NCBI RefSeq assembly: GCF_030273315.1
Contig: NZ_CP127174.1
Coordinates: 2,852,001 to 2,916,000 of the forward strand
DNA from: Natrialbaceae archaeon AArc-T1-2
GTDB taxonomy: Archaea; Halobacteriota; Halobacteria; Halobacteriales; Natrialbaceae
Direction: 5' to 3'
DNA: 64,000 bases
Positions 32,277-38,977 of this stretch are shown here, piece after piece; positions within the stretch are counted from its first letter, which is position 1, and each line of letters begins with the position of its first letter. A model generated the notes under the pieces. It saw only the letters and a program-made list of their open reading frames with translations. It was not told the origin of the DNA and made no database searches. Both the position numbers and the translations under genes were made by a program.

Positions 32277-32612
32277 ATGGGAGTCCGGCCACCATCGAAC
32301 GACGACGACGACGAGCCCGACAGCGTCGAGTTCGGCATCGCAGCCGTCGACGCGACGCTTCGACGATCCGACCTCACCTTTCCGGCCACCAGAGACGACG
32401 TCGCAGCAGAACTCGGTCACGAACGTATTCCGTACGACGTCCACGGTAACGACGTCGCACTCGGCGAGATCCTCGCGGAGGTCGATCAGGATCAGGATCG
32501 CTTCGAGAGCCGCCAACAGCTCTTGAACGCGCTCCATCCGGAGTTCGAGGAGTACCGCAAGAATCACTCCGGTGGCGTCGTAAAGCAAGTGCGGTCGCTA
32601 CTTCCGTTCTAG
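32277..32612 (+). CDS. small haloarchaeal protein, DUF5789-like
   Basis: 111 residues. A disordered acidic start (PPSNDDDDEPDSVEFG) is followed by a small helical domain (ELGHERIPYDVHGNDVALGEILAEVDQD ... LLNALHPEFEEYR). It resembles the haloarchaeal DUF5789 family (recognised from memory). No catalytic motif. TATA-like sequence upstream is unclear. Its 3' end overlaps the convergent aglJ by 4 nt. Function unknown. Confidence 0.65.
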   Translation: MGVRPPSNDDDDEPDSVEFGIAAVDATLRRSDLTFPATRDDVAAELGHERIPYDVHGNDVALGEILAEVDQDQDRFESRQQLLNALHPEFEEYRKNHSGGVVKQVRSLLPF

Positions 32613-33580
32613 TCCCGGTCGTTCGTGTTCGTCTCCCGATCGCGCTTCGTCTCGCGTCGTAACCGATCCAGCCGCTGTCGTTGTTCACGGTGCAACGTGA
32701 CGATCATATCGGAGAGAACGCCGAACATCACGAGCTGAACGCCGAGTAAGATTCCAGCCGCCGAGACGACGGCCAGCACCTCGTGGCTGATGCCGTACTG
32801 GAGGTATCGGTAGAGCACGTAGGCGGCGATCGCGGTCCCCGAGAGGATACCGGAGACGCCGACGCTGCCGAAGTAAAGCAGCGGGTTGTTCGTCTTCGCG
32901 AGCGAGTACAGCGTGAGCGCGATCGTCCCGCCGTCCCAGATCGGGTGCAGGTTCGTCGTCGAGTCCTCCGGCCGGGCGCGGTAACTGATCGGGACGACGG
33001 TCGTGTCGATCCCGTTTTTCACACACTCGACGGCGAGTTCGGTCTCGATCGTGAATCCGTCGGACGAAAGCGAGAGCCGCTGAAACGAGTCGGTCGTAAA
33101 CGCCCGATAGCCCGAGAGGATGTCCTCGAAGGCCGCGCCGTGGACGAACCGAAACGCGCGGTTTATCACCCGGTTGCCGAAGCCATTGAGCGCGCGCATG
33201 GCGTCGTCGTCCATGTCCGCGAATCGATTACCGATGACGTGTTCGTACCCCTCGGCGAGCGGCTCGAGCATCGTCTCGGCGTCGGCCGGATCGTAGGTCC
33301 CGTCGCCGTCGACCATCAGAACGTACGGCAAATCGACGTACTCCATGGCCTCCCGGACGGCCTGTCCTTTCCCCGAGCCCGACTGTACCAGCACGCCCGC
33401 ACCCCGCTCGCGTGCGATCTCGCGAGTAGCGTCTTCGGAGTCCCCGTCGACCACGAGAACGGTCGTATACCCCTCCTCGTGGAAGCCGTCGATCACCTCG
33501 CCGATGGTCGCTTCCTCCTCGAGCGTCGGAACGAGAACGCAGACGTCGTCAGGAGAGATATCGCGCGGCTCGTCGGTCAT
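32609..33580 (-). CDS. aglJ: glycosyltransferase family 2, AglJ-like dolichol-phosphate hexosyltransferase
   Basis: 323 residues from MTDEPRDISPDD; an extension of 14 residues upstream is possible. GT2 domain about 10-230: VCVLVPTLEEEATIGEVI, LVVDGDSEDAT, the DxD-type YVLMVDGDGTYDP, and the acceptor region DILSGYRAFT. Two membrane segments follow (about 245-270 and 275-300). AglJ adds the first hexose to dolichol phosphate in S-layer N-glycosylation. The gene stands next to aglM, which supports that role. A generic dolichol-P-glucose synthase is the alternative. Confidence 0.75.
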   Translation of the reverse strand: MTDEPRDISPDDVCVLVPTLEEEATIGEVIDGFHEEGYTTVLVVDGDSEDATREIARERGAGVLVQSGSGKGQAVREAMEYVDLPYVLMVDGDGTYDPADAETMLEPLAEGYEHVIGNRFADMDDDAMRALNGFGNRVINRAFRFVHGAAFEDILSGYRAFTTDSFQRLSLSSDGFTIETELAVECVKNGIDTTVVPISYRARPEDSTTNLHPIWDGGTIALTLYSLAKTNNPLLYFGSVGVSGILSGTAIAAYVLYRYLQYGISHEVLAVVSAAGILLGVQLVMFGVLSDMIVTLHREQRQRLDRLRRETKRDRETNTNDRD

Positions 33581-33703
33581 GGTGAGGACCTCCGTGTCCG
33601 CGCGAATCGCGTCATGCTCCATCGAGTGATCATTCGCCCGTCGGAGCCGAAAAGGCTACTGATCTGCCACGAGAGCGCCGTCCGAGCCGCGTCTCGTCGG
33701 TCG

Positions 33704-34990
33704 TCACCACGTCAGTCCCTCGTAGACCTCGAGGTCGGCCGGATCGACGCCGATTCGTCGCCCGTCGACGACGACCCGGCGGGCCATCCCCTCGACGTCG
33801 AGGTCGTCGAACTCCGGCCAGCCGGTGGCGACGACCGCACCGTCTGCACCCTCGAGAGCGGCGATTGCCGAGTCGGCGTACTCGAGGTCGGGGTAGTCGG
33901 GCCGGACGTTCTCGATCGCGACGGGATCGTAGGCGACGACGGTCGCGTCGCGCTCTCGGAGATGCTCGATCACGTCGAGCGCTCTCGATTTGCGGACGTC
34001 GTCGGTGCCGGGTTTGAACGAGAGGCCCAGGACGGCGATCCGTGCGCCCTCGAGGTCGACGTGATCGCCGAGGAGGGAAACGAGCCGGCGGGGTTGCTCG
34101 TCGTTGACCGCGACGACGGCATCGAGCAGGACAGGATCGTAGCCCTGTTCTCGTGCGCCCGCGCGAAGCGCGTTGACGTCTTTCGGGAAACAGGAGCCGC
34201 CCCAGCCCAGTCCCGACCTGAGAAAGCGTTCTGAAATCCGCTCGTCGAGTCCGACGGCCTCGAGCACCTCGTAGGCGTCCGCCCCGTAGGCTTTCGCGAC
34301 GTTGCCGAGTTCGTTGACCAGCGACACCTTCGCCGCGAGGAAGGCGTTGTTGGCGTACTTGATGAGCTCGGCCTCGCGAATCCGGGGTTCGACGAGGTGG
34401 GTGTCGTCGTCGAGAATCGGCGCGTACAGCTCCCGAAGCGTCGCGGCCGCCGCCTCGCGTTCGGTTCCAAGCACCACTTTGTCCGGCTCGAAGAAGTCGG
34501 CGACGGCGGTGCTCATCCGGAGGAACTCGGGGTTCATCGCCAGCTCGAGATCCTCGCCAACCTCCTTGCCCGACCGATCGGCGACGATCGGACCGACGAC
34601 GTCCTCGGTGGTACCCGGCAGGACGGTGCTCTTGACGACGACGAGGTGGTCGCCGTCTTTCTCGGCGAGGGCGTCGCCCAGCGACTCGACACCCGCTTTC
34701 ATCACGGCGAGGTCGAGGCTGCCGTCCTCGCGCTGGGGCGTCGGGAGACAGAGCATTGTGAGGTCGGTCTCGGCGACGGCGTCGTAGTCGGTCGTCGCCC
34801 GGAGCCGCGTGCCTGCGTGTGCGTCGATGCGGTCGGCGAGGCCGGCCTCGTGGATCGGGGCCTCGCCCGCGTTGATCGTCTCGACGATCTCTTCGTCTAC
34901 TTCGACGTTGACGACGTCGTGGCCCAGGTCCGCGAGACAGGCCGCGACCGTCGTCCCGACGTAGCCGCTGCCCACGATGGAGACGTGCAT
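33704..34990 (-). CDS. aglM: UDP-glucose 6-dehydrogenase
   Basis: 428 residues. It oxidises UDP-glucose to UDP-glucuronate with two NAD+, supplying uronic acids for the S-layer glycan. NAD-binding G7-S-G-Y-V-G at the N terminus, LCLPTP, VVKSTVLPGTT, MNPEFLRMSTAVADF, a conserved ELIKYANNAFLA, and the catalytic Cys C267 in GWGGSCFPKD. The third domain ends with GTDDVRKSRALDVI. It is on the same strand as the ASRT/lactone-oxidase genes upstream (24 nt gap) and aglJ downstream. NDP-sugar specificity could be broader. Confidence 0.87.
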   Translation of the reverse strand: MHVSIVGSGYVGTTVAACLADLGHDVVNVEVDEEIVETINAGEAPIHEAGLADRIDAHAGTRLRATTDYDAVAETDLTMLCLPTPQREDGSLDLAVMKAGVESLGDALAEKDGDHLVVVKSTVLPGTTEDVVGPIVADRSGKEVGEDLELAMNPEFLRMSTAVADFFEPDKVVLGTEREAAAATLRELYAPILDDDTHLVEPRIREAELIKYANNAFLAAKVSLVNELGNVAKAYGADAYEVLEAVGLDERISERFLRSGLGWGGSCFPKDVNALRAGAREQGYDPVLLDAVVAVNDEQPRRLVSLLGDHVDLEGARIAVLGLSFKPGTDDVRKSRALDVIEHLRERDATVVAYDPVAIENVRPDYPDLEYADSAIAALEGADGAVVATGWPEFDDLDVEGMARRVVVDGRRIGVDPADLEVYEGLTW

Positions 34991-35014: not shown

Positions 35015-35407
35015 TTAGTCGTTTTTGGCTTCGCCGTACGCGATCGTCGAGAGCGTCGCGTGCTCGGCCTGTCGCGTGTCCTGGCGAGTGAACTGGACGA
35101 CGACCGGCACGTCCGACTCGAGCACGATGCCGTAGTCTCTGCCGAGTGGCGGTGCGTAGGGGTCGATCAGGTCGTTGATTCGGATCCGCCGCACTCGACG
35201 CGGGGCGACGGTGAGCGGGTACGGCCCCGCTTCGTGGCCGTCGGCGTAGGTGAGCGTGATCTCGAGGGTGGCCATCTCCTCGCCCGCGTTCAACAGCGAC
35301 AGCGCGTCGTGGCTGACCATCTCCGGCTCCGGGCCGGTGCTGTCAGCCGGTACGAAACCACCGGGAACCTCCCAGCGCGTCGCACCGATCGGGGCTTCGT
35401 CGGTCAT
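35015..35407 (-). CDS. sensory rhodopsin transducer (ASRT) family protein, copy 1
   Basis: 130 residues. It follows the Anabaena sensory rhodopsin transducer pattern: W-VPGGFVPADSTGPEPEMVSHDALSLLNAGEE, ITLTYADGHEAGPYPLTVAPRR, IRINDLIDP, YGIVLESDVPVVVQFTRQDTRQAEHATLSTIAY. ASRT is a small all-beta tetramer; outside rhodopsin-bearing cells the family is thought to bind small molecules, possibly sugars. No rhodopsin gene is in the window. Its start overlaps the lactone-oxidase stop by 4 nt. Relative to copy 2 it has R-I/R-I in place of the more typical T-K-H-L-R-F strand. Confidence 0.85.
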   Translation of the reverse strand: MTDEAPIGATRWEVPGGFVPADSTGPEPEMVSHDALSLLNAGEEMATLEITLTYADGHEAGPYPLTVAPRRVRRIRINDLIDPYAPPLGRDYGIVLESDVPVVVQFTRQDTRQAEHATLSTIAYGEAKND

Positions 35408-36714
35408 GGTGAGGAACCCTCCTCCCCGACCAGCAGCTCTTCGAGGTAGTCGGTCAGGAACACGCCCTCCGGATCGAACTCGCGACGAAACTCGTGGAAC
35501 CGGTCCCACTTCGGGTACAGCTCCCGAAGCTTCGGCGCGCGAAGCGTGTGCCGTTTGCCCCAGTGGGGACGGCCGTCGTACCTCCGGAAGATCGGTTCGA
35601 TGTCCTCGAAGTACTCCCGATACTCGAGTTCGGCGTTCTGGATGCACGAGATCGTCGTCGTCTCGCGGTCGTACTCCGTCGAGAGGTACGTATCGTCGGC
35701 CGCGACGGTCCGGACGAGCAGCCGCCAGCCGACGTCGCTTCGCCAGCGATCTCGCACCCGATCGCGGACCTCGCGGAAACACTCCCTGGTCGCCTCGCGC
35801 GGGATGGCGTACTCCATCTCCTCGAACTTGCGGCCGATCTCGTTGTGCGCGGGAATGGCCTGGTGCCACCAGTCGGTCTCGCGTTCGACGAGCGTCGCGT
35901 ACTCGAGGTCTGCGTCGTCAGTGCCGCCGCCGGGCGGGTTGAGCAGTCGAAGCTTGACCTCGTCCGACCGGGGATACCAGTAGAAGTCGAAGTTCCGGTT
36001 CTCGGCGATCAGCTCCTCGAGGTGGTCCCAGACGTCCCGAAATCGCCCGCAGTACTCGCGACGCTCGAGCTTGTACGTGCGTCGACAGTCGAGTTTCACC
36101 TCGGTGAAGATCCCGAGCGTGCCAAGCGAGACGCGCGCTGCCTCGAGCAGGGCGGGGTCGTCGTTGGCGTCGAACGCGCGGACCTCGCCCGTTCCAGTCA
36201 CGACTCGCCCGCCGACGAGCGACCCGGCGAGGTTCTCGAAGGCTGGACCCGTGCCGTGGGTGCCGGTGCCGAACGAGCCCGCGACCGTCTGCATCGTCAC
36301 GTCGCCGAGGTTCGCCAGCCCGAGGTTGCGCTCGTGGAGGTCGAGACCGGCCTCATCGAGCGTCGTGCCGCCCCGGACCGTCGCCGTCTTCGTCTCGGAG
36401 TCGGCGGAGACGAGTCCGGTCATCCGCTCGAGCGAGACGATCACGTCGTCGGTTTCGACGACCGGCGTCCAGGAGTGACCCGCGCCGGCCACGCGGACAG
36501 TCCGACCGTCGTCGGCACACTGGCGGACGATCGACTGGACCTCGGATTCGGTCTCGGGCGTGTACATCCGGTCCGGTTCGACGGAGACGCCGCCCGACCA
36601 GTTCGACCACTCCTCGCCTGCCGTCTCGCCGGGATCACTCTTGTCCACGATTACCCCTCGGAAAGCGCCGTAGTGATTCTCGACGGTCCAGTCGCTCGCA
36701 CCATTACGAATCAC
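35404..36714 (-). CDS. FAD-linked sugar-1,4-lactone oxidase (aldonolactone oxidase family)
   Basis: 436 residues. FAD-binding PCMH domain about 50-215: VAGAGHSWTPVV (the His is the usual covalent-FAD position), TVRGGTTLDEAGLDLHERNLGLANLGDVTMQTVAGSFGTGTHGTG, and LGIFTEVKLDCR. A C-terminal substrate domain contains DFYWYPRSDEVKL and ends GRPHWGKRHTLR (HWGK, a signature of the family) and FDPEGVFLTDYLEELL. It oxidises a sugar lactone or polyol with O2 or another acceptor. It overlaps both flanking ASRT genes (11 and 4 nt), so the three are one translational unit. Confidence 0.85.
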   Translation of the reverse strand: MIRNGASDWTVENHYGAFRGVIVDKSDPGETAGEEWSNWSGGVSVEPDRMYTPETESEVQSIVRQCADDGRTVRVAGAGHSWTPVVETDDVIVSLERMTGLVSADSETKTATVRGGTTLDEAGLDLHERNLGLANLGDVTMQTVAGSFGTGTHGTGPAFENLAGSLVGGRVVTGTGEVRAFDANDDPALLEAARVSLGTLGIFTEVKLDCRRTYKLERREYCGRFRDVWDHLEELIAENRNFDFYWYPRSDEVKLRLLNPPGGGTDDADLEYATLVERETDWWHQAIPAHNEIGRKFEEMEYAIPREATRECFREVRDRVRDRWRSDVGWRLLVRTVAADDTYLSTEYDRETTTISCIQNAELEYREYFEDIEPIFRRYDGRPHWGKRHTLRAPKLRELYPKWDRFHEFRREFDPEGVFLTDYLEELLVGEEGSSP

Positions 36715-37075
36715 CCGGGTGTGCGATCGTCGAGAGCAACGCGTTCTCCGCCTGCCTCGAGTCGAGCCGCGTGTGCTGACAGACCACCGGCACGTCCGAC
36801 TCGATCACGCTCGCGAACGGTTCGCCCTCGGGAATTTCCGCAGGCTCTTCGAGTTCGTTGAATCGGAGGTGTTTCGTTCGGTTCGCGGGAACGGTCTCCT
36901 CGTAGGGACCGACCGGTTCGCGGTCGGTGAAATAAACCGTGAGTTCGACGGCCGCATCCTCGTCGGTGGTGTTCAGGAGACACACCGCCTCGTGGCTGAC
37001 CATCTCGGGTTCGGGGCCCGTACTTTCTTCGGGGATGTACCCCTCGGGAATCGCCCACGTGTGTTTGCCCGTCAT
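36704..37075 (-). CDS. sensory rhodopsin transducer (ASRT) family protein, copy 2
   Basis: 123 residues from ATG 37,075 (a GTG two codons upstream is possible). A very good family match: HTWAIPEGYIPEESTGPEPEMVSHEAVCLLN, AVELTVYFTDREPVGPYEETVPANRTKHLRFNEL, and FASVIESDVPVVCQHTRLDSRQAENALLSTIAH. It is closer to the canonical ASRT than copy 1. It is first in the run ASRT-lactone oxidase-ASRT and overlaps the oxidase start by 11 nt. It probably forms an oligomer and binds a ligand rather than transducing light here. Confidence 0.88.
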   Translation of the reverse strand: MTGKHTWAIPEGYIPEESTGPEPEMVSHEAVCLLNTTDEDAAVELTVYFTDREPVGPYEETVPANRTKHLRFNELEEPAEIPEGEPFASVIESDVPVVCQHTRLDSRQAENALLSTIAHPGDS

Positions 37076-38020: not shown

Positions 38021-38977
38021 TCAGTCGAACGCCGGCAACACCTCTTCTTCGTAGCACTCGAGAAAGCCCTCCTGATCGGAGCCGACCTGGTGGACCGCGA
38101 TCGCGTCGAAGCCGGCGTCGACGTACGCCTGGATCGCCTCGACGTGAGCGTCCGGGTCGGGACCGCAGGGGACCGCCTCGGCGACGTCGTCTCTCGAGAC
38201 CGCCTCGGTCGCTTCCGCGAAGTGCGCCGGCGTCGGCAGGTCCCACAGCAGCGTGCTGGGGAGTGCCTCCTGGGGCCAGAGTTCGGCCACCGTGTCGATC
38301 GCCTCGTCCTCGTCTTCGGCCCAGCAGACGGTCGCCTCGCCGTAGACGATACCGTCGTCGTCTGCGGTCTCTGCGAAGGTTTCGACCAGGCGCTCGTCGG
38401 GAACGACGGTGATGAGTCCGTCGCCGATTTCGCCGGCTTTTCGGGCCGTCTTCGGGCCGTCGGCTGCGACCGCGACGTCGGGCGGTTCCTCGGGGAGTGT
38501 GAACAGACGCGCGTTCTCGACGGTGTAATACTCGCCGTCGTGGCTCACGTTGTCGCCGGACCACAGCGCCCGCATCAGCCAGATCGCCTCTTCGAGCATC
38601 TCGAGGCGCACCCGGTGTTCGGGCCAGCGATCGCCGAGGACGTGCTCGCTCAGGTTCTCCCCGGTGCCGACGCCGAAGGTGAACCGCCCCTCGAACATCG
38701 TCGCGGTCGTCGCGGCCGCCTGCGCGATTATCGCGGGATGGATTCGGGTCGTCGGGCAGGTGACGCCGGTCCAGACCTCGAGGTCGTCGGTCGCCTGGGC
38801 GATCGCGCCGAGGACGTTCCAGACCAGCGGACTCTCTCCCTGCTCGGGAAGCCACGGGTGGAAGTGGTCCGAGACGTTGGCGAATTCGAACGCCGAGTCC
38901 TCGGTCAACTGGGCGTATTCGACGAGGTCGGTCGGGCCGTGTAACTCGCTGACGAGTTTGTGTCCGATGTCTACCAT
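38021..38977 (-). CDS. F420-dependent LLM-class oxidoreductase
   Basis: 318 residues, a TIM-barrel luciferase-like monooxygenase relative. Signatures: NVSDHFHPWLPEQGESPLVWNVLGAIAQATDDLEVWTGVTCPTTRIHPAIIAQAAAT, then FTFGVGTGENLSEHVLG, and VAADGPKTARKAGEIGDGLI. This resembles the F420-dependent glucose-6-phosphate-dehydrogenase-like subfamily (TIGR03557 type). Haloarchaea make F420. The substrate is unknown. The longer in-frame reading up to 39,982 runs antisense to the enoyl-CoA hydratase and is spurious; MVDIGHKL is the natural start. Confidence 0.85.
   Translation of the reverse strand: MVDIGHKLVSELHGPTDLVEYAQLTEDSAFEFANVSDHFHPWLPEQGESPLVWNVLGAIAQATDDLEVWTGVTCPTTRIHPAIIAQAAATTATMFEGRFTFGVGTGENLSEHVLGDRWPEHRVRLEMLEEAIWLMRALWSGDNVSHDGEYYTVENARLFTLPEEPPDVAVAADGPKTARKAGEIGDGLITVVPDERLVETFAETADDDGIVYGEATVCWAEDEDEAIDTVAELWPQEALPSTLLWDLPTPAHFAEATEAVSRDDVAEAVPCGPDPDAHVEAIQAYVDAGFDAIAVHQVGSDQEGFLECYEEEVLPAFD

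Follow-up and report, generated by a model that had tools for sequence, protein, structure and literature searches.

The Anabaena sensory rhodopsin transducer (ASRT), once believed to pass on the signals of a light sensor, has a rhodopsin as its partner, an association that is not a feature of the ASRT family as a whole (PMC3198991). Binding to promoter DNA and DNA looping have also been reported for the Anabaena protein (PMC3198991, PMC8660804). De Souza, Iyer and Aravind proposed in 2009 that ASRT-type domains bind sugars and act as sensors through protein contacts, and among the neighbors of ASRT genes they noted amylases in Sinorhizobium, a pyruvate oxidase, and an FAD oxidoreductase related to glycolate oxidase (PMC2739507); the family has a ligand-pocket signature, SHExxCxxN, that is nearly, although not strictly, invariant (PMC2739507). 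For flavoenzymes of the alditol and aldonolactone type, eight active-site residues, Glu327 among them, are listed for alditol oxidase AldOAb (8OT8; PMC10771423), and in galactonolactone dehydrogenase (GALDH) the A113G substitution gives higher oxidase reactivity (PMC7312611). A link between ASRT proteins and FAD enzymes was already proposed in 2009 and is not new. What is new is the obligate pairing of an oxidase with one type of ASRT over distant lineages, the division of ASRT proteins into A and B types, the optional nature of the A type, a remodelled oxidase active site, and an association with TIGR03885. An earlier note on this DNA had suggested that the module could be previously uncharacterized, which holds for its function, but the sugar-sensor idea and the FAD-oxidoreductase neighbors were both in print in 2009. 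Among the papers searched, "rhodopsin transducer" never occurs together with "lactone oxidase," and TIGR03885 is not mentioned.

The locus described here lies in the genome of the Natrialbaceae archaeon AArc-T1-2, within a window of 64,000 nucleotides, which is the whole stretch of DNA that was analyzed. Two ASRT genes flank an FAD oxidase gene at 35015-37075, as the earlier note had reported and as Pfam matches, coordinates and the shared minus strand bear out. The transcription order is ASRT-A (36704..37075; 123 aa; PF07100, E=1.3e-56), a generic ASRT in the clade of the Anabaena protein; the oxidase, of the ALO/alditol-oxidase type (35404..36714; 436 aa as the longest frame; PF04030, E=4.1e-44; PF01565, E=2e-24), which also matches TIGR01679 above its cutoff (NCBIfam); and ASRT-B (35015..35407; 130 aa; PF07100, E=1.3e-44), a member of an oxidase-linked ASRT clade. 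Both ASRTs match PF07100 over their full length (190.1 and 151.5 bits against a curated cutoff of 25), and the genome contains no further ASRT gene. The oxidase stop and the ASRT-B start share an ATGA overlap of 4 nt (35404..35407, minus strand), and a Shine-Dalgarno-like sequence, GGAGGAGGG, lies ahead of ASRT-B within the oxidase 3' end (35417..35425, minus strand). This overlap stands as first described, and all 17 oxidase orthologues of the same family are followed by an ASRT-B that overlaps them by the identical 4 nt; the 11-nt overlap claimed between ASRT-A and the oxidase, however, depends on the choice of start codon, since it holds only if the oxidase begins at the GTG at 36714. An alternative GTG at 36648, preceded by GAGGGG, is the likelier start because it better fits the N termini of homologues and because the oxidase model has low confidence across most of residues 1-24; it would leave a gap of about 55 nt to ASRT-A. 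No RNA elements were found above threshold in the trio region.

The names aglM (33704-34990) and aglJ (32609-33622), which the earlier note had given to the neighboring genes, are correct. No relatives of either were found among the called genes of the other neighborhoods, so the adjacency looks incidental, and a functional link of the trio to aglM and aglJ as conserved context is rejected. Two genes upstream of the trio, the window contains an F420-type LLM oxidoreductase gene (38021-38977; TIGR03557); it was rejected as a recurrent partner, being a paralogue different from the one found at other loci (about 40% identity at most). That no rhodopsin gene lies nearby can be extended to the whole genome: it is 99% complete and has no match to PF01036, whereas the same search is positive in 95 of 125 relatives, which rules out a rhodopsin link for these two ASRTs.

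Within the same family, PF07100 proteins are present in 36 of 125 genomes, from which 39 regions were fetched and 17 oxidase orthologues identified. ASRT-A is upstream of the oxidase in 14 of the 17 and on another contig in the other three, such that every one of these genomes has ASRT-A somewhere; the ASRT genes that stand without an oxidase are all of the A type. In a class-level sample of 391 genomes, full oxidase orthologues (>750 bits) co-occur with a second intact ASRT gene in the same genomes, one of which (G293) belongs to another family, and the loci of lower-scoring oxidases are devoid of ASRT genes. We also observed a decaying trio (G022:C3:83353-83864, locus L035), in which ASRT and oxidase fragments contain in-frame stops.

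The arrangement extends well beyond the haloarchaea. A scan of species genomes, with motifs that were derived from haloarchaeal sequences and so favor close members of the oxidase subfamily, yielded 80 oxidase loci, 9 of them distant ALO oxidases and 71 others; the loci span Bacteroidota, Pseudomonadota, Actinomycetota, Chloroflexota, Myxococcota, Gemmatimonadota, Armatimonadota and methanogen bins, among others, with species counts that are non-independent. ASRT-B is immediately downstream on the same strand in all 70 testable loci of the oxidase subfamily (70/71 in total), the one remaining being a contig stretch that stops 71 nt past the oxidase, and none of the nine distant ALO oxidases has an ASRT nearby. 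The commonest spacing across phyla is -4, and spacings other than this are approximate because bacterial ASRT-B start codons were picked automatically. ASRT-A is upstream of the oxidase in 27 of the 71 loci and elsewhere nearby in 7. The trio is thus widespread rather than limited to the genome in which it was first noticed, and its recurrence across genomes places the arrangement far beyond chance. Nonetheless, the constant part is smaller than the trio: in many of 50 whole genomes searched ASRT-B is the sole ASRT (Pontibacter, Steroidobacter, Nocardiopsis, Dietzia and Microbacterium, among others, have the oxidase and ASRT-B with no other ASRT), and therefore the invariant unit is oxidase plus ASRT-B, with ASRT-A optional. 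These bacteria rule out a general requirement for both ASRTs, and they leave obligatory joint action of the paralogues unsupported.

Other genes recur beside the pair at subsets of loci. A DUF2721 gene directly follows (once precedes) the oxidase-ASRT-B pair at 16 loci, mostly in Bacteroidota and Chloroflexota (L125, L126, L129 and 13 more), and an AEC-type transporter gene adjoins it at 19 loci in archaea, Myxococcales and a few others (L034, L041, L047, L124 and L135, for example). In Sinorhizobium meliloti (L196, L241), the trio cluster is near genes of a general-stress type, encoding a protein-L-isoaspartate methyltransferase, a ferritin-like protein and a general stress protein.

The division between the two ASRT types is evident in a maximum-likelihood tree of 128 ASRT sequences, in the building of which gene position played no part. 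A single split (UFBoot 92) separates all 77 proteins encoded downstream of an oxidase (B) from everything else, namely, upstream, unlinked and solo ASRTs, the Anabaena ASRT and TM1070. When the tree is rooted on TM1070, the Anabaena ASRT clusters with A-type proteins of Salinimicrobium, Salegentibacter and Nitrosospira (UFBoot 92), and the ASRT-A described here is 67% identical to it. The pocket residues are well kept in the A type (His in 100%, Cys in about 96%) and much less so in the B type (39% and 44%, respectively). The ASRT-A described here has the signature as SHEAVCLLN (36971..36997, minus strand; His28 and Cys32 being the pocket residues per PMC2739507), whereas its ASRT-B has SHDALSLLN, in which the His and Asn are kept, the Glu is replaced, and Ser stands in place of Cys; its Pfam membership is unaffected. 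The earlier supposition that both paralogues bind the ligand does not fit most B lineages, in which the pocket His and Cys are lost, although the His is mostly still present in haloarchaeal ASRT-B proteins, which may bind a ligand there.

The core of the beta-sandwich is shared, with Trp in 97 to 100% and Asn in 100% of both types, and both residues are present in the two proteins described here. What distinguishes the B type is the motif N78-D-L-I-D-P-Y-A-P-P-L88 (35144..35176, minus strand), conserved across B at N78 (99%), D79 (100%), L80 (99%), I81 (100%), P83 (100%) and L88 (100%); D79, I81 and L88 are unconserved in A, where the same loop is variable except for the Pro. This NDLI-x-P-loop-L segment is a candidate docking loop for the oxidase. 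An invariant motif together with a pocket that has mostly lost its His and Cys suggests that ASRT-B is a dedicated oxidase subunit, and the retention of both pocket residues suggests that ASRT-A is an optional ligand binder.

The oxidase has FAD_binding_4 and ALO domains and the VAO/ALO fold (Pfam; structural matches with Z of 46 to 49). The top structural match of its model (pLDDT 91) is alditol oxidase 8OT8 (Z 49, rmsd 1.8 over 378 residues, 29% identity), followed by ancestral GALDH (Z 46-48). Seven residues, His80, Gly137, Asp138, His153, Glu299, Arg335 and Lys387, are the same in all 61 proteins of the alignment. His80 (codon at 36475..36477, minus strand) aligns with the flavin-site His of 8OT8 and is the predicted site of covalent FAD attachment. 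Half of the eight AldOAb active-site residues are kept (His45, His118, Arg329 and Lys382, corresponding to His80, His153, Arg335 and Lys387 here), and the other half are replaced (Ser103 by Asp138, Gln295 by Glu299, Glu327 by Leu333, and His350 mostly by Ser356). The Glu of the Glu-x-Arg pair has a substrate-binding role in lactone enzymes; the pair here is Leu333-x-Arg335, with Leu in 59 of the 61 aligned proteins. Gly137 aligns with the GALDH gatekeeper position, Ala113. The replacements, the invariant Asp138 and Glu299, and the Gly gatekeeper together argue for a flavoprotein oxidase whose substrate site is specific yet altered. The sugar-lactone oxidase identity that the earlier note had assigned fares poorly: with Leu in place of Glu and half of the eight residues of the alditol-oxidase active site replaced, a lactone substrate is unsupported, and "D-arabinono-1,4-lactone oxidase" is probably the wrong substrate label for the whole subfamily.

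Gene neighborhoods point instead to alpha-glucoside breakdown. A TIGR03885-type LLM flavin oxidoreductase is encoded at 30 of 63 non-haloarchaeal loci, and at 25 of the 63 a gene for a GH13 or GH15 glucosidase accompanies it; those GH15 proteins that were tested begin with a trehalase-like domain. The Sinorhizobium genes run in the order TPP enzyme, ASRT-A, oxidase, ASRT-B, GH13, and LLM. The LLM and glucosidase genes are absent near many trios, including the one described here, whose genome encodes TIGR03885 (C1:443459) and GH15 (C1:2715406) away from the trio. TIGR03885 scores above its cutoff in all 17 same-family genomes with the oxidase and in 31 of the 108 without it (p=1e-8 in a Fisher test that takes no account of phylogeny). 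From the operon neighbors TIGR03885 and GH13/GH15, we infer a substrate derived from an alpha-glucoside or glucose; the functional link to the oxidase and the sugar context that the earlier note had proposed are well supported. A cluster (c17) antisense to GH13 genes was taken as a spurious-ORF artifact. We note that solo A-type ASRT genes on bacterial plasmids (L233, L234, L237, L239) lie near GH15, gluconate 2-dehydrogenase/GMC, TPP-enzyme and enolase-superfamily genes, that in Deinococcus D7000 the ASRT gene and a GH15 gene share 4 nt, and that on a Klebsiella pneumoniae plasmid (L238) a solo ASRT gene is beside sugar transporter, SDR and mandelate-racemase-type genes.

The reading that we favor, to which we give slightly better than an even chance, is of a two-protein flavo-oxidase core with an optional ligand-binding ASRT-A and a substrate of alpha-glucoside origin. 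The core would consist of an oxidase with the alditol-oxidase fold, probably covalently flavinylated, and a dedicated small beta-sandwich subunit, ASRT-B, which would be made by translation coupled to that of the oxidase and bound to it, probably through the NDLI-x-P-loop-L motif. ASRT-A would be an optional ligand-binding subunit, with its His/Cys pocket, that joins or regulates the complex and works elsewhere without the oxidase too. The oxidase substrate would be a small polyhydroxy compound set free when alpha-glucosides of the trehalose or maltose type are broken down; the enzyme would transfer electrons from this compound to oxygen and act alongside a GH13/GH15 glucosidase and the TIGR03885 flavin oxidoreductase. 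Because the genes for oxidase and ASRT-B are neighbors in bacteria and archaea that are only very distantly related, the two proteins probably form one uncharacterized sugar-oxidizing unit without relation to light.

Three other explanations can be weighed against this one. The model of the earlier note, here taken as a mixed ASRT-A/ASRT-B tetramer to which the sugar acid or lactone binds and which either passes this ligand to the oxidase or reports on that enzyme, is consistent with the common trio order (14/17 in the family, 27/71 in the wider set) and with ASRT-A in every same-family oxidase genome, even on a separate contig; we nonetheless consider it unlikely, given the many bacterial genomes with oxidase and ASRT-B only, the loss of pocket residues in most ASRT-B lineages, and an active site that misfits the lactone-oxidase pattern. 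Overall, the interpretation in that note is partly supported. Strict one-to-one linkage and coupled translation are also compatible with ASRT-B as an assembly or stability factor, such as a chaperone or flavinylation helper, that stays outside the active enzyme. Against this, the nine distant ALO-type oxidases without a nearby ASRT imply that the fold as such needs none, and we know of no ASRT in either role; we regard a maturation factor as rather improbable.

A role of the ASRT proteins as transcription regulators of the oxidase operon could be argued from the place of the reportedly DNA-binding Anabaena ASRT in the A clade, so that ASRT-A could act in this manner. However, direct coupling of ASRT-B to the oxidase is seen without exception, whereas transcription regulators usually have less rigid positions, and a Pfam search found no DNA-binding domain beyond the ASRT fold in either protein, making regulation a quite improbable account. 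Returning to the two-protein core with optional ASRT-A, a bolder form of it is possible but tentative: oxidase and ASRT-B would be an unrecognized cross-domain, two-subunit flavo-oxidase with a new substrate, ASRT-A would be its ligand-sensing third subunit, and Anabaena sensory rhodopsin would have recruited such an A-type protein, the "transducer" being metabolic in origin. For the ASRT family, which owes its renown mainly to a single rhodopsin, the oxidase is an enzyme partner of wide occurrence whose role can be tested, and the sugar-metabolism genes that adjoin A-type relatives suggest a possible origin for the Anabaena transducer.

Compared with known systems, both ASRT genes are full-length members of the ASRT/ASRAH superfamily (PF07100; Anabaena 2II7 and Thermotoga maritima TM1070, 1NC7), and ASRT-A keeps the SHExxCxxN pocket; the locus differs in having two paralogue types, one of which, B, is linked to the oxidase, carries a motif of its own and has a pocket that has decayed, and, unlike the Anabaena protein with its rhodopsin partner, these ASRTs are encoded in a genome without a rhodopsin. 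The oxidase resembles alditol oxidase AldO (8OT8, 2VFR) in its fold and in its flavin-site His and active-site His, Arg and Lys, but differs in four active-site replacements and in its linkage to ASRT. With the aldonolactone oxidoreductases (L-galactono-1,4-lactone dehydrogenase and D-arabinono-1,4-lactone oxidase) it shares the PF01565 and PF04030 domains, although it has Leu for the Glu of Glu-x-Arg and a gatekeeper Gly, as in the A113G variant, rather than Ala. The Sinorhizobium pSymB cluster has the same trio order and an oxidase 48% identical to the one described here, and it differs in carrying within the operon the glucosidase and LLM genes that the archaeon encodes elsewhere in its genome.
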